From positions 1-34,112 of the IMG/VR virus record IMGVR_UViG_3300030450_003131: a DNA stretch of 34,112 bases; one strand, given 5' to 3'. The DNA is from a virus. The position numbers and the translations under genes were made by a program. The notes beneath the pieces were generated by a model that did no database searches, was not told where the DNA came from, and saw only the letters and a program-made list of their open reading frames with translations. Shown one piece after another: positions 804 to 34,112 of the stretch (the first letter of the stretch is position 1; every line of letters begins with the position of its first letter).

Positions 804-967
804 ACCAAGTAACACAACAAAAAGAATTAAGACAAGAGCTAAGTAGAATAGAAAACTACTTATCGTTATTAGCTAAACATGGAGCAACTAGAGAAAATTC
901 TATTGGCTATAAAAAGTATGACGATATGGCTATGGAAATTACTTCAATATTAATTAACATCAAATAA
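800..967 (+). CDS. Hypothetical 55-aa helical protein
   Basis: ATG at 800 overlaps the upstream stop, and the TAA at 965-967 overlaps the ATG of the SET gene (TAATG). The product is almost entirely helix-forming, with a probable coiled-coil segment (QQKELRQELSRIENYLSLL). The double overlap with flanking genes supports translation and places it in the same transcript as the SET-domain gene. Confidence 0.6.
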   Translation: MNQVTQQKELRQELSRIENYLSLLAKHGATRENSIGYKKYDDMAMEITSILINIK

Positions 968-1383
968 TGGACATTACTTGGTTATTACATTATAAAGTAT
1001 ATATAGGAATTTCTAAAATTCATGGAGTAGGATTAAGAGCAGTAGACAATATAAAGAAAGGTGAAGTTGTCTTTTTTTATAAAAATGAAAATGTTAAAAA
1101 AGTAAAGATACAAGACCTACTAAATTTAGGAGTTTCAAAAAATACAATTGAAGTTCTTTGCAGATTATGTTATGCAACTGAAGAGTATATATTTATTAAA
1201 GAAAATCAAGGAATAGACTTCGTTAATTATTTGAATCACCATGATGACTCTAATTTAATTTTTAAAAATGGTTATTATATTGCTAGTAAAGATATTAAAA
1301 AAGACGAAGAAGTAGTCTTAGATTGGACAGAGAATGATTATCATCCTCAACTTAACTTTAAACCTAATAAAAATGAAAAATAA
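967..1383 (+). CDS. SET-domain protein, putative lysine methyltransferase
   Basis: 138 aa, about the size of a minimal SET domain. The N-terminal SET signature is present at residues 15-34: a Gly-Val-Gly turn (G20, G22) followed by DNIKKGEVV. The catalytic-core signature at 84-96 has N90-H91 and N96, matching the family NHxxxxN pattern that binds S-adenosylmethionine and shapes the pseudoknot. The last motif, ASKDIKKDEEVVLDW (106-120), matches the family pattern of A..DI..GEE....Y, with Trp120 where Tyr is usual. A two-Cys segment (C65, C68) lies in the insert. Known members transfer methyl groups to protein lysines; the substrate here is unknown. The gene sits in the accessory operon and overlaps both neighbours. 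I am fairly sure of the fold and less sure of activity, given the Tyr-to-Trp change. Confidence 0.8.
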   Translation: MDITWLLHYKVYIGISKIHGVGLRAVDNIKKGEVVFFYKNENVKKVKIQDLLNLGVSKNTIEVLCRLCYATEEYIFIKENQGIDFVNYLNHHDDSNLIFKNGYYIASKDIKKDEEVVLDWTENDYHPQLNFKPNKNEK

Positions 1384-22004: not shown

Positions 22005-22027
22005 TTCTTGTTTTTTGTTTTGTTTTG

Positions 22028-22063
22028 AAGGAGTTAAAATTAATTTTTTAGCTCCTTTTTTTT
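22028..22063 (+). terminator. Rho-independent terminator after the NinG gene
   Basis: Stem AAGGAGTTAAAA / TTTTAGCTCCTT (12 bp, one T-G) with a 6-nt loop, followed by a run of eight T. It separates NinG from the conserved promoter at 22101. Confidence 0.9.
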
Positions 22064-28247: not shown

Positions 28248-28468
28248 ACATTAAGACAAAAGATAAAATAGTTAGAAAAGTTATTCAAAAAATGGATGAC
28301 AGAAGTATAGTGGGTCAAAATAAATATGGCAACACTATGAATAAAGAAATAGAAGACGAAATAAAAGACTTATTAGATTTTGTCAACGATGTACAAGAGG
28401 AAATGATGGACGCTTTATTATATTTAGAATCAGTAAAAACATTATTAATTAAAAACAAAATAAAATGA
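28244..28468 (+). CDS. Small all-alpha protein, MazG/NTP-pyrophosphatase-like fragment
   Basis: 74 aa from ATG 28244 (ATGA overlap with the exonuclease stop). DRSIVGQNKYGNTMNKEIED and DLLDFVNDVQEEMMDALLYL resemble the helical EExxD core of small all-alpha NTP pyrophosphatases. Those enzymes remove unwanted dNTPs. It could be a partial or minimal member, or a structural relative without activity. Its place beside the hydroxymethylase and transferase genes makes a nucleotide-pool role attractive. Confidence 0.5.
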   Translation: MNIKTKDKIVRKVIQKMDDRSIVGQNKYGNTMNKEIEDEIKDLLDFVNDVQEEMMDALLYLESVKTLLIKNKIK

Positions 28469-29682
28469 AAGTAGCAATATTATTAGGAAGAGGTATTGAA
28501 GGTTGTGGAGTCACAAGATTTGCCTTAGAACAAGAGAGATGGTTTCAAAAACAAAAATCAATTAGTTGTAAAGTATTTGCAAGTGATGATAAAAAATGGG
28601 GTAGACGTGATGCTCAACAACATAACATTATCGCATTTGAAAATGACAGAGTTAAAGGATTATCTAAAATTTTAGATGAAGAATATGATGTAGTGTATTA
28701 TCATTCATTAGCAGGTCGTTCCAACACGGAAGAATATAGAGAATTATGGTATGAATATATGGTGAAAGGAATAACAAAACCATTGAAGATAGCATTTCAA
28801 CATGACCATAAACTTGGTTCATTAACTAGGAATCATAAAGTATGGGAGACAATGCAATATATGGATGCATGTTTTACTCATTCTTTAGGTAGTCCTTTTT
28901 GTAAAAAATTAAGTGAGAAAGGAATTAGGACACCAGTCTCTGTTTTCTCAGTTGGTTTTGATTTTGATTCTTTATTACATTTTAGAAAACCTGTAGACAA
29001 GCAATTAAAAAGAGTTACATATTTTGGAAGATTTGCAGGATTTAAAGACCCTGAAAGAATTGTAGATATGCAACCAATATTAGAACAATATCGTTTTTAC
29101 TCAGAATTAAGAGGAATTGAAAGGAGTATTGGTTCATTACCATTATTTTATGGAGATGTTAAAGACAGAGAGAATACTTATAAGAAAAATATATACGAAG
29201 TAACTAAAAAGAATCCAGAGCCTTATATAAAATCACCTGCATTAACTTATATTTATGGACCTTATAACAGAATAGAAGGTCTAGCTGAATTAAGTGAATC
29301 AATGTTTGGTGCAGATTTTTTTAATTTAGATGCTGATTCTCATTCAAACAATATGGAATATTCAATGGCTGAAATTATTGCAGTTGGATGTATACCATTA
29401 TTTGATGTTAATTGGGCGAAAAATACAAGACATGTTAATGGCTTATTAATGAATGACCTTAAAGAATTTGCAATATTTTCTGATAGAAATGATTTCAAAA
29501 AAACAGTAGAAGAAATGGAGGAATTAGCAGACAATAATTATCTTCGAAGTAAATTTAGAAAGAATTCATTTGAATTAGCTAAAGAGCATTGTGATAGTAG
29601 TAAAGCTTTTAAGGATATTTTAACTGAAACTTTATTAGTAGAAAAAAAGACAAATTACATGGACCAATTAGAAATGTTTTAA
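28465..29682 (+). CDS. DNA alpha-glucosyltransferase-like enzyme (T4 Agt/GT72-like)
   Basis: 405 aa, GT-B type. The first 25 residues, MKVAILLGRGIEGCGVTRFA LEQ, match the start of T4 alpha-glucosyltransferase (MRICIFMARGLEGCGVTKFS LEQ, recalled), including the EGCGVT nucleotide-sugar loop. A second shared block is FQHDHKLGSLTRN (111-123), where T4 Agt has a YQHDH...SLRRN block. A third is EYSMAEIIAVGCIPLF (298-313), like the T4 LEYTHLELGACGTIPVFW region. T4 Agt puts glucose from UDP-glucose onto 5-hydroxymethylcytosine in DNA. The gene lies two bases before a dCMP-hydroxymethylase-like gene, which would supply the acceptor base. Other GT4 enzymes acting on glycans are possible, but the three blocks and the neighbour favour DNA. 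Confidence 0.72.
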   Translation: MKVAILLGRGIEGCGVTRFALEQERWFQKQKSISCKVFASDDKKWGRRDAQQHNIIAFENDRVKGLSKILDEEYDVVYYHSLAGRSNTEEYRELWYEYMVKGITKPLKIAFQHDHKLGSLTRNHKVWETMQYMDACFTHSLGSPFCKKLSEKGIRTPVSVFSVGFDFDSLLHFRKPVDKQLKRVTYFGRFAGFKDPERIVDMQPILEQYRFYSELRGIERSIGSLPLFYGDVKDRENTYKKNIYEVTKKNPEPYIKSPALTYIYGPYNRIEGLAELSESMFGADFFNLDADSHSNNMEYSMAEIIAVGCIPLFDVNWAKNTRHVNGLLMNDLKEFAIFSDRNDFKKTVEEMEELADNNYLRSKFRKNSFELAKEHCDSSKAFKDILTETLLVEKKTNYMDQLEMF

Positions 29683-29683
29683 T

Positions 29684-30337
29684 ATGTGGCAATTTAACAC
29701 CATAACAGATGCATTTGAATTTTATTACGATAAAATAGATTCACAACCTCATTCAGAAGAAACAGGTACAAAAGCTCTATATAACCAAATGTTCACGATT
29801 TTAGATACTTCTAAAAAAATAATAACAACACCTTATAGAAAATTTAAGGTAGATTATGCTGAATTAGAATGGAATTGGTATTTGTCACAAAACAGATGTG
29901 CAAAAGACATAGCTAAAGTCGCTTCTATTTGGTATAACCACATGGATGAAAGAGGATACGTAAATAGTAATTATGGTTGGCAATGGAATAGAAATGAACA
30001 AATTGAGTATGTAATTAGAGAACTTGAGAGAGATAAATATTCTAGACGAGCAGTATTAACTATTTATGATGGAAAAGAGCATCTTGAGTACTCTAAAGAT
30101 ACTCCTTGTACATTGTCGATACAATTTTACTTTACTCCTGATTCTGAAAGGTTAAATATGACAGTGATTATGAGAAGTAATGACCTTTGGTTTGGTTTTT
30201 GTAATGATGCTTATTGTTTTTTAAAATTACAAGAACTAATTTGCAATTATTTAGAATGCGAAACAGGATATTATATACATTTTGCACAAAATTTACACAT
30301 TTATGAACGACACTATAATAAGAATGGAAATATTTAA
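29684..30337 (+). CDS. dCMP hydroxymethylase-like protein (thymidylate synthase family)
   Basis: 217 aa, close to T4 gp42 and shorter than most thymidylate synthases. VNSNYGWQW (93-101) and YSRRAVLTIY (119-128) match T4 gp42. The catalytic Cys is C142 in TPCTLSIQFYF. MRSNDLWFGFCND (163-175) aligns with RSCDVFLGLPFN of E. coli thymidylate synthase, so D175 occupies the place of Asn177, which reads uracil; T4 gp42 also has Asp there to bind cytosine. His-x-Tyr (205-207) is kept. The enzyme would convert dCMP to 5-hydroxymethyl-dCMP using methylene-tetrahydrofolate. Plain thymidylate synthase is less likely but not excluded. Confidence 0.75.
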   Translation: MWQFNTITDAFEFYYDKIDSQPHSEETGTKALYNQMFTILDTSKKIITTPYRKFKVDYAELEWNWYLSQNRCAKDIAKVASIWYNHMDERGYVNSNYGWQWNRNEQIEYVIRELERDKYSRRAVLTIYDGKEHLEYSKDTPCTLSIQFYFTPDSERLNMTVIMRSNDLWFGFCNDAYCFLKLQELICNYLECETGYYIHFAQNLHIYERHYNKNGNI

Positions 30338-30647
30338 TAAGATTAGAGAATGGGCTGAAGATAAAGAAATCTTAGCCAAAGGAAATATAAAAACACAGTA
30401 TATTAAACTACAAGAAGAATGTGGTGAACTTGCTGAAGCTATTTTAAAAGAAGACCAAGTAGAAATTAGAGATGCAGTAGGAGATATTGTCATTGTTCTA
30501 ACTTCATTATCTGAAATGGCAGGGTTTAATATAGAAGCTGGAATTATGGAAGCATATTTCGAAATTCAAAACAGAAAAGGTAAAATAATTAATAACAATT
30601 TTGTAAAAAAACAAGAAAACGATGAGACGATACATTTCCCGCATTAA
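30324..30647 (+). CDS. MazG-like nucleotide pyrophosphohydrolase
   Basis: 107 aa from ATG 30324; in-frame ATGs further upstream lie inside the hydroxymethylase gene. The all-alpha NTPase core is present: IKLQEECGELAEAI (E31, E32, E35) and IRDAVGDIVIVL (D50, D54), binding Mg and the dNTP triphosphate. Such enzymes cut dNTP to dNMP plus pyrophosphate. In phages with hydroxymethylcytosine DNA a dCTPase of this superfamily (T4 gp56) keeps normal dCTP out; this gene may do the same (inference). It overlaps the upstream gene by 14 bases. Confidence 0.8.
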   Translation: MEIFNKIREWAEDKEILAKGNIKTQYIKLQEECGELAEAILKEDQVEIRDAVGDIVIVLTSLSEMAGFNIEAGIMEAYFEIQNRKGKIINNNFVKKQENDETIHFPH

Positions 30648-31047
30648 ATTAGATGATGGATTAAATAATTTAATATTAAACTCCAAAACAATTGGACATA
30701 TTGGAGAACAAGTATTTAAAAAATGGTTTAAGAGTAATTTTCATGACGAACAATTATTTAAACAGAAAGCGGATAGAGATTATCAAAAAATAGATTTTTC
30801 TGATGAGAAAGGTTACACGTATCAAGTAAAGACAACAACAAAAAAGTCTTATACGTTTAATTGTGAAAAGGAAAAAATTAAAACTCATTTAAAAGCAGAT
30901 TTTTACGTATTTATTCAACTTATTGATGAATATGCGTATATAGAACCTATAAAAACAGCAAAGGATGTAGAAGAAAAAATCAGAAGAAGTTTTTACAATG
31001 GAACGAGTTATATCAAGTCAAAAGACTTGCAACAATACGAGATATAA
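30622..31047 (+). CDS. PD-(D/E)XK nuclease-like protein
   Basis: 141 aa. GHIGEQVFKKWF (E29), then DYQKIDFSDEKGYTYQVKTT with D58 and Q68-V-K70, is the PD-(D/E)XK pattern with Gln in place of the second acid, as in some resolvases and restriction-type enzymes. A mixed alpha/beta tail follows. Possible jobs are branched-DNA resolution or attack on host DNA lacking the phage base modification. It overlaps both neighbours. Confidence 0.7.
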   Translation: MRRYISRIKLDDGLNNLILNSKTIGHIGEQVFKKWFKSNFHDEQLFKQKADRDYQKIDFSDEKGYTYQVKTTTKKSYTFNCEKEKIKTHLKADFYVFIQLIDEYAYIEPIKTAKDVEEKIRRSFYNGTSYIKSKDLQQYEI

Positions 31048-31300
31048 GGGACTGGACAACCCTATTATTTACGATCATTATTTACTAACATTATACGAAA
31101 TAGAAAATGGAACTCATGTTAGCGATATAACAAATATGTTAAAAGAATACGAAGAAAAGGAATTGTATTATGAATGTGCAGGAATATGGAGAGCACTTGA
31201 CCATTACCAATTTATTATCTTATATGCTTTAATAATTTATTATGATATCGATCACGTGACGAATATAAAAATAGAAAACTATGAAATTAAAGACTATTAA
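30998..31300 (+). CDS. Hypothetical 100-aa protein
   Basis: Begins MERVISSQKTCNNTRYKGLD, then helical segments, including YECAGIWRALDHYQF and a hydrophobic stretch IILYALIIYY. Acidic overall. It overlaps the nuclease gene by 50 bases and the DnaA-like gene by 20. No family recognised. Confidence 0.6.
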   Translation: MERVISSQKTCNNTRYKGLDNPIIYDHYLLTLYEIENGTHVSDITNMLKEYEEKELYYECAGIWRALDHYQFIILYALIIYYDIDHVTNIKIENYEIKDY

Positions 31301-31733
31301 AAAACTAGTAGAAGAAAGAACCAATATAAACCTCTTAATTCCAACTAGAAAACGAAAAGCAGTTTATGCTAGAGCAATCTACTTTAAATTAGCAAGAGAA
31401 AAGACCCACCTATCACTAAAACAAATAGGTGAATCATTAAATAAAGACCATGCAACAGTTCTACACTCCATCAATAATATATTTGAAGAGATAAAAAAGT
31501 ACGACTCAAGTCATTATTCCATCTACAAAGAACTACTTGGAACTGAAAAATTGCTACCAATGAATAAACGTTTTTTAATTCTTTCAAAAAAACACGAGGA
31601 TTTACAAGATAAACTTTTACATGAAAAATATGACAACATCATAGAAATTGTTAAAAGATTACCTGATAATAAGTTAGACGTCGCAGAAATTAGATTCAAA
31701 GCAATTGCGGATTTACTAGATAACAAAAATTAA
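31281..31733 (+). CDS. DnaA domain IV-like DNA-binding protein
   Basis: 150 aa. RKRKAVYARAIYFKLAREKT (23-42) and SLKQIGESLNKDHATVLHSI (45-64) match the DnaA C-terminal domain, which binds DnaA boxes through its basic helix-turn-helix; DHATVLHS is the family box (usually DHTTVLHA). No AAA ATPase domain is attached. The C-terminal 70 aa are helical and specific to this protein. It could mark the phage origin and recruit host replication proteins, or act as a repressor. Followed by a 120-base gap. Confidence 0.82.
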   Translation: MKLKTIKKLVEERTNINLLIPTRKRKAVYARAIYFKLAREKTHLSLKQIGESLNKDHATVLHSINNIFEEIKKYDSSHYSIYKELLGTEKLLPMNKRFLILSKKHEDLQDKLLHEKYDNIIEIVKRLPDNKLDVAEIRFKAIADLLDNKN

Positions 31734-31853: not shown

Positions 31854-32105
31854 ATGGCAGATAAAAGAAAGAACAACGGAGGTCACCCTAATTGTGGACG
31901 TAAATCCAAGGCCGAAGAATTGAAACTAGTAGAAAGATTAGGACCATTAGAAACAAAAGCATTTAAAGCTCTTAAAAAAGGAATTGAAGTAGGAGACTTT
32001 AAGTATGTACAACTGTTTTACCACTACTATGCTGGTAAACCTAAAGAATCAAAAGACATAACATTAAATACAGAACAACCCTTATTCACTTTAGATAAAG
32101 ATTAA
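31854..32105 (+). CDS. Terminase small subunit-like protein
   Basis: 83 aa. NGGHPNCGRKSKAEELKLVE followed by FKALKKGIEVGDFKYVQLFY HYYAGKPKE resembles the short DNA-recognition subunits seen before terminase large genes in Bacteroidetes phages. It has a basic N-terminal segment and then helices. Its stop overlaps the ATG of the large subunit by one base. The assignment is mostly by position plus recalled similarity. Confidence 0.65.
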   Translation: MADKRKNNGGHPNCGRKSKAEELKLVERLGPLETKAFKALKKGIEVGDFKYVQLFYHYYAGKPKESKDITLNTEQPLFTLDKD

Positions 32106-33274
32106 TGGACGACTTTATTGTAACAACTGCAATTAAGAAACTGTACAAATTAAAGAAGAGAAAGAGAATAGTTCAAGGAGGTACGTCAGCAGGCAAGACC
32201 TTTGGTATTCTTCCTATATTGATAGATACAGCTATTAGGCAACCTGGTATAGAGATATCTGTGGTGAGTGAGTCTATACCTCATTTGAGAAGAGGTGCCC
32301 TAAAAGACTTCCTAAAGATTATGGTATTGACAGGGAGGTTTATAGACCACCAGTTTAATAAGTCTATATTGAAATATACTTTTACTAATAAGAGTTATAT
32401 AGAGTTCTTTAGTATAGAGTCTGCTGACAAGCTTAGAGGAGCGAGACGAAATATACTATATGTCAATGAAGCTAATAACATACCCTTTGATGCCTATAAC
32501 CAATTAGCTATAAGGACCTCCAATACTATATGGATAGACTTCAACCCTACCTCTAGCTTTTGGGCTCATACAGAATTAAAGAACCAAGATGATACAGATT
32601 TCTTAAAGCTAACTTATAAAGACAACGAGGCACTCTCTGATGCCATTGTCAAAGATATAGAGAAAGCTAAAGGGAAAGCCTTAACCTCCAATTACTGGAA
32701 AAATTGGTGGACAGTATATGGACTAGGAGAAGTAGGAGCTCTAGAAGGAGCCTGCATCAAAGATTGGTATAGTATGGCTCTCCCTGGTGAGGCAAGGTTG
32801 CTCTGTTATGGAATGGATTTCGGATATACCAATGACCCTACCACAGTGGTTGCTATGTACAAGTGGAACAATGCTTATGTCTTTGACGAAGTCCTATACA
32901 AAAAAGGACTCTTGAATAGTGGACTTTCATCTCTCTTGAAACAGGGGGACCATACTGAAATCATCTATGCGGATAGTGCAGAACCTAAGTCAATAGCGGA
33001 ACTTTGTTCTTATGGGCATACTGTATTACCATGCCAAAAAGGCAAGGACAGCATAGTGTACGGTATCAACCTCCTTAATCAGCAAGAATTATATATAACA
33101 CCTAAGTCTGTTAATTTAATTAAAGAGTTGCAGAATTATATTTGGATGGTTAATAAGGATGGGACGACCTTAAATAGACCTATTGATAACTATAATCATT
33201 GTATTGACGCAATGCGGTACGCGATTACCTCCCAGCTGGCTAACCCAGGGCACGGAGAATATCATATTTACTAA
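32105..33274 (+). CDS. Terminase large subunit
   Basis: 389 aa. The N-terminal ATPase has Walker A GGTSAGKT (25-32) and Walker B ILYVNEAN (117-124, E122). The C-terminal RNase H-like nuclease has YGMDFGYTNDPTT (D238), IIYADSAEP (D290) and HCIDAMRYAI (D368). Together these pump and cut genomic DNA. The gene differs in base and codon use from its neighbours: 27 of 60 bases at 32761-32820 and 26 of 60 at 32821-32880 are G/C, against 10 and 11 of 60 in two samples from the portal gene, with AGG, CTC and ACC codons rarely used elsewhere. This suggests later acquisition or strong codon optimisation. Confidence 0.94.
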   Translation: MDDFIVTTAIKKLYKLKKRKRIVQGGTSAGKTFGILPILIDTAIRQPGIEISVVSESIPHLRRGALKDFLKIMVLTGRFIDHQFNKSILKYTFTNKSYIEFFSIESADKLRGARRNILYVNEANNIPFDAYNQLAIRTSNTIWIDFNPTSSFWAHTELKNQDDTDFLKLTYKDNEALSDAIVKDIEKAKGKALTSNYWKNWWTVYGLGEVGALEGACIKDWYSMALPGEARLLCYGMDFGYTNDPTTVVAMYKWNNAYVFDEVLYKKGLLNSGLSSLLKQGDHTEIIYADSAEPKSIAELCSYGHTVLPCQKGKDSIVYGINLLNQQELYITPKSVNLIKELQNYIWMVNKDGTTLNRPIDNYNHCIDAMRYAITSQLANPGHGEYHIY

Positions 33275-33913: not shown

Positions 33914-33986
33914 TGCGAGTTGGAGAAGTGGTCATCTCGTGAGTCTCATAAACTCAAGGTCAGCGGTTCGAATCCGTTACTCGCAT
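33914..33986 (+). tRNA. tRNA with CAU anticodon (Met or Ile2)
   Basis: Complete cloverleaf: acceptor TGCGAGT/ACTCGCA, D stem GAGA/TCTC, anticodon stem TGAGT/ACTCA with loop CTCATAA, T stem AGCGG/CCGTT and loop TTCGAAT. The anticodon CAT is at 33947-33949. CCA is not encoded. Position 73 is T and the first pair is T-A, both unusual. The stem lacks the three G-C pairs of initiators, so it is an elongator Met tRNA or an Ile tRNA whose C34 is changed to lysidine to read AUA, a codon this genome uses heavily. Confidence 0.85.
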
Positions 33987-34007
33987 CTAACTTAAACACA
34001 AAACAAA

Positions 34008-34112
34008 ATGAGAAAATTACATTGGTACGAAACTTGGAAAATTGATGAAAATATAGAAGATGAAATATTAGAAGGAATCAATAAACTAATAAAACAAAAT
34101 AAAGAGTATAAA
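34008..34112 (+). CDS. Hypothetical 41-aa protein, 5' part (continues at base 1)
   Basis: ATG at 34008 after the leader AAACACAAAACAAAATG. The frame is open to the window end and continues at base 1 after the overlap is removed, ending at 120. The last base of the window differs from base 99 and would change Asn to Lys; it is best taken as an end-of-assembly artefact. Confidence 0.7.
   Translation, partial: MRKLHWYETWKIDENIEDEILEGINKLIKQNKEYK
34014..34111. repeat. Terminal direct repeat, right copy
   Basis: Identical to bases 1-98. Its presence inside a gene restored by circularisation supports a closed genome of about 34,013 bp. Confidence 0.93.

Follow-up and report, generated by a model that had tools for sequence, protein, structure and literature searches.

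The stretch of DNA analysed here (the window, 34,112 nucleotides) is the whole of virus record IMGVR_UViG_3300030450_003131. Its two ends (positions 1-99 and 34014-34112) overlap directly over 99 bases with one mismatch, as expected of a complete genome whose assembly closes into a circle. Among annotated phages, the relatives of its portal protein are the Nonlabens phages P12024S/L (34%), and its terminase is 50% identical to those of Flavobacterium psychrophilum phages, so the host most likely belongs to the Flavobacteriia. At 967-1383, on the plus strand like every gene of its surroundings described below, the window encodes a small SET-domain protein. The initial annotation had called this gene phage-encoded, which holds for what is a complete flavobacterial siphophage genome.

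The SET gene lies in an accessory island of ~2.6 kb that extends, across the circular junction, from the gene for the terminase large subunit (TerL, 32105-33274; Pfam Terminase_3C, E 1.2e-20) to the gene at 1856-2488. The island comprises small ORFs, a tRNA with a CAT anticodon (33914-33987, called by ARAGORN), the SET gene, two more small ORFs and a terminator. The small ORFs upstream of the SET gene (1-966; 403-585, 588-803 and shorter ones in the ORF list) match no family above any curated cut-off. Those downstream (1334-1778 in the ORF list) encode a protein of 82 aa with a hydrophobic stretch and one of 70 aa (1566-1778). An intrinsic terminator on the plus strand (1801-1838; 12-pair stem, loop of 7, T-run; -18.6 kcal/mol, z -4.9) ends the island before the neck/tail block. 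In P12024S, TerL is immediately followed by the homologue of the window gene 1856-2488. A second site resembling a terminator, again with a long stem, is found at 22027-22058. Taken with the terminator at 1801-1838, it suggests that the SET gene may form the last part of a transcript on which the replication genes and the terminase also lie. A Bacteroidetes-type promoter pattern was no more frequent than expected by chance. The gene had been described as sitting among early-type small genes; the small-gene setting is real, but the location is not simply "early", as it falls between TerL and the neck/tail genes, upstream of a strong terminator.

The ORF at 967-1383 runs from ATG to TAA and encodes 138 aa. 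It matches Pfam SET (PF00856) with 30.8 bits (E 4.2e-7; curated cut-off 22.4), and its predicted structure matches solved SET domains, both of which bear out its assignment as a SET domain. All motif residues by which SET membership was tested are present (G20, G22, N90, H91, N96, E114 and E115). SET motif I, part of the SAM site, is G20-V-G22 (1024-1032) and is near-invariant among relatives. SET motif III, the equivalent of RFINHxCxPN, is N90-H91-x4-N96 (1234-1254), with N90 invariant and H91 and N96 near-invariant. SET motif IV is E114-E115-V-V-L118-D119-W120 (1306-1326), and the acidic motif reads D109-I110..D113-E114-E115. The initial annotation was thus correct that the G-x-G, N-H-x4-N and DI..DEE motifs are kept, and also that Trp replaces the final catalytic Tyr, since W120 aligns with the tyrosine of ELxFDY. 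Five residues past W120 begins a further motif, Y125-H126-P-Q-L-N-F (1339-1359).

Several other searches with the window SET protein returned little. NCBIfam gave nothing above any cut-off, PHROGs gave no match of note, Padloc gave no match to a defence family, and a search of solved structures with the single window sequence gave no significant SET match. A tblastn search of annotated phages with the window protein and two relatives also found no match, with records very near the window possibly excluded. In the viral structure library BFVD, an unnamed viral protein of 138 aa (A0A516LY53) is 99% identical to the window SET, indicating an earlier deposit of this protein or of one almost identical to it.

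We built an AlphaFold2 model of the window SET from 77 aligned SET sequences of phages and bacteria. The model is of moderate confidence (pLDDT 81.6, pTM 0.63), with pLDDT about 50 after W120, in the C-flank, which in canonical SET lysine methyltransferases helps to form the knotted C-terminal active site. Searched against the PDB, it gave 211 matches at E <= 0.001, and the best 50 of these were all SET-domain proteins or complexes containing one; TM values (by target or query) were mostly 0.4-0.6 for this moderate-confidence model. The best match by E-value was MLL3. The structure comparison with chlorovirus vSET that the initial annotation had proposed likewise recovered a SET fold (3kma; TM 0.60 by target length), although global superposition of the model on SET structures is loose (rmsd 4.6-7.8). 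A first model (pLDDT 79.5, TM about 0.4-0.5, rmsd about 10) was superseded by this one, which uses a better alignment.

The window protein departs from the canonical SET active site at the tyrosine of ELxFDY, which corresponds to Set7/9 Y335 and yeast Set1 Y1054 (PMC3585878). This residue is Trp in the window and Phe in all close relatives found. In the same subfamily, the residue at the Phe/Tyr switch is Leu. The window protein also has R24 in place of Phe and H92 in place of Ser, two more departures at near-invariant positions that its relatives share only in part.

Relatives were sought by scanning viral contigs with the window protein and a first close relative, L155. Four loci in phage contigs (L204-L207; L205 lies on the contig of L155) encode proteins 47-52% identical to the window SET over about 133 aa (E about 1e-43), with Pfam SET scores of 40.0-42.2 bits; the SET proteins of L205 and L206 are identical. 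The structural genes of all the phages that bear these relatives are homologous to those of the window (26-89% identity), which places them in one phage lineage with it. Reading frames are intact in all SET copies found. The dN/dS ratio is 0.21 for the pair L206/L207, from only 12 differences, and about 0.23-0.33 for deeper pairs, in which synonymous sites are near saturation. With dN/dS at about 0.2-0.3, purifying selection acts on the subfamily gene, which is therefore probably still useful; the ratio, together with the 47-52% identity of the relatives, confirms that the window ORF is more than a chance reading frame.

The SAM-site motifs are kept in every member of the subfamily, whereas their absence from relatives would have spoken against the original reading. 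The ELxFDY tyrosine is absent in every member, and the survey of this position that the initial annotation had suggested found Phe in all of the nearest relatives. Its loss extends to the entire subfamily, with Trp or Phe instead, and has thus been selected or tolerated rather than arising as a stray substitution. The C-terminal YHxxLxF motif is also common to all members (YHPKLSF in L204, YHSKLNF in L205-L207).

The position of the gene varies among these phages. In L204 the SET frame begins immediately past the stop codon of the terminase, and in L205-L207 it overlaps the end of the tape measure gene. The available sequence before the homologue of 1856-2488 in L206 and L207 contains no SET gene but does contain a homologue of ORF 1566-1778, which is also present in L204. 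It follows that the SET gene has used two slots, one after the terminase and one after the tape measure gene, and it behaves as cargo in these phages.

SET methyltransferases had been described as chiefly eukaryotic, with scattered bacterial and viral copies. Our data do not support treating them as rare oddities here. A SET gene was found in 30 of 192 Patescibacteria genomes sampled around one genome (G018), with open frames that span 108-305 aa. In viral contigs, a restrictive pattern scan returned at least 120 stretches, the majority of which a profile search confirmed as SET. Copies also occur in several Synechococcus phages, where one bears the annotation of a SET-domain protein, and BFVD holds several SET entries from Caudovirales. 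SET proteins are common in phages, and the window protein is a variant with an altered Tyr position. Our literature search found no paper describing the function of a phage SET protein.

We also compared this position across SET proteins. Among the matches listed, 156 SET rows have a residue in the ELxFDY column (Tyr in 145, Phe in 10 and Trp in one), counts that are not population frequencies because some scans demanded certain codons and some aimed at non-Tyr codons. In a less biased set the counts are Tyr 51, Phe 1 and Trp 1. A strict pattern for Trp-type SETs gave a single match in viral contigs, and the SET profile search did not recover it. In a maximum-likelihood tree of 109 rows, the window clade (support 100/99) falls together with other phage SETs (90/84). 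The well-supported branches of this tree require Tyr to have been lost at least three times, though the bootstrap is not fully settled. Across roughly 150 phage and Patescibacteria SETs, nearly all sequences outside the window subfamily have Tyr here, and it was lost on at least three independent occasions.

A second pattern was spotted post hoc and is put forward as a lead: a Y-H or Y-P pair at +4/+5 occurs in three of five Tyr-lacking lineages, compared to one of 145 Tyr-bearing rows. Besides the window subfamily, the L104 group and L182, which lost Tyr independently, have Y-P at +4, whereas the Tyr-lacking lineages L209 and L069 have no downstream Y-H or Y-P. On its phage contig, the Tyr-lacking SET gene of L182 (1620-2090) directly follows a cpn60-type chaperonin gene (311-1636; PF00118, E 2.6e-25), and one small ORF separates it from an ORF that reads like a terminase.

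Of the known systems, the Synechococcus phage proteins (SynMITS9220M01, S-B05 and Sf-CH1b) resemble the window protein in being stand-alone and small (about 120 aa), and one is annotated as a SET domain-containing protein-lysine N-methyltransferase. However, viral SETs of this cyanophage type retain the Tyr and share about 25% identity with the window protein, and the Synechococcus genes adjoin purM, whereas the window gene is near the terminase. Chlorovirus vSET, a histone H3K27 methyltransferase, is also a minimal viral SET domain, but comes from a virus of a eukaryote and is 18% identical to the window protein. The best cellular match is one of the small SETs of Patescibacteria, Nomurabacteria L042 (37% over about 115 aa), which has the Tyr, lies in a bacterial genome assembly and falls outside the window clade. 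Chlamydial cpnSET, which acts on Hc1, provides an example of a bacterial SET enzyme that modifies the bacterium's own nucleoid protein (PMC3980110).

Mutants of yeast Set1 bear most directly on the altered residue. Set1 Y1054F, which has at this position the Phe found in the window's relatives, retains 45% of H3K4me1, 28% of me2 and 3% of me3, while Y1054A is null, as is N1016A in the Asn of motif III (PMC3585878). Y1054F is a laboratory mutant of a large COMPASS enzyme, and that study contained no Trp variant (PMC3585878). Nevertheless, its partial activity means that loss of the Tyr is no proof of inactivity.

The retained Asn-His, the aromatic residue in place of Tyr, the purifying selection and the Set1 data together favour an enzyme that still works but whose lysine channel is altered. 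The Pfam SET score and the match of the model to SET structures, vSET among them, point the same way. On this evidence we give about an even chance that the window gene encodes a working minimal SET methyltransferase of a phage-specific subfamily, with slow or low-order methylation likely. The residue lost here is one at which Set1 tolerates Phe, and the Asn essential to Set1 is retained throughout the subfamily. Against this stand R24 and H92 in the window copy, the null phenotype of Set1 Y1054A and the moderate quality of the model, and our literature search found no SET enzyme described with Trp at the ELxFDY Tyr position. The same R24 and H92, the null Y1054A mutant (PMC3585878) and the absence of the usual Tyr throughout the subfamily would suit a pseudoenzyme, a module that binds SAM or a lysine peptide, has stopped methylating and works through its contact with a host or phage protein. 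We regard this as a real but lesser possibility, because the SAM-site and motif III residues are kept in all members under purifying selection, such strict keeping of N-H and EE..D is unexpected for a module that only binds, and Set1 with Phe at the Tyr site is still partly active (PMC3585878).

As a special case of a working enzyme, the relocated Y125 of YHxxLxF could supply the hydroxyl of the lost Tyr. Conservation of YH at +5 in all subfamily members, Y-P at +4 in the independently Tyr-lacking L104 group and L182, and the enrichment described above point in this direction. However, this is a post hoc observation based on five lineages, L209 and L069 lack the downstream motif, and low model confidence past residue 120 leaves the placement of Y125 unfixed, making a relocated tyrosine rather unlikely. 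The broader idea that phage SETs repeatedly dropped the active-site Tyr and rebuilt the pocket with a downstream Tyr, giving a different active site and possibly another acceptor or product, appears improbable. A recently acquired, decaying passenger with no function would explain why the SET position varies among relatives, why the portal-related contigs searched (all fragments) gave no SET match, and why no SET is annotated between the terminase and the next gene in P12024S. With intact reading frames in all copies, dN/dS well below 1 and a C-terminal motif common to the subfamily, this explanation is already disfavoured and we consider it very unlikely.

If the window gene does encode a methyltransferase with an altered channel, the stand-alone SET protein would bind SAM and methylate lysines of a protein made by the phage or its host. 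With Trp or Phe for the ELxFDY Tyr and Leu at the Phe/Tyr switch, its lysine channel would most likely make it slow or favour the addition of one or two methyl groups. The gene itself behaves as accessory cargo of flavobacterial siphophages, in which it has taken up two different slots. Protein methylation would then be a phage tool directed at bacterial or virion proteins, and the subfamily would provide a natural test of a debated point, whether the ELxFDY Tyr is needed for methyl transfer or only tunes the number of methyl groups.

Other genes of the window deserve mention. The gene at 30622-31047 weakly matches a model of a type II methyl-directed restriction enzyme (padloc, E 0.0014), with no Pfam match. 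A 150 aa protein with a DnaA C-terminal DNA-binding domain (31281-31733; Bac_DnaA_C, E 4.8e-14) may bind DnaA boxes. A homologue of the T4-type DNA alpha-glucosyltransferase is encoded at 28465-29682 (Pfam AGT, E 3.9e-19; PHROG alpha-glucosyltransferase, E 8.9e-80; best phage match Bacillus phage G gp306, 31%) and adjoins a gene of the thymidylate-synthase family at 29684-30337. The pairing of these two genes suggests that this flavobacterial siphophage may carry glucosylated, hypermodified DNA.
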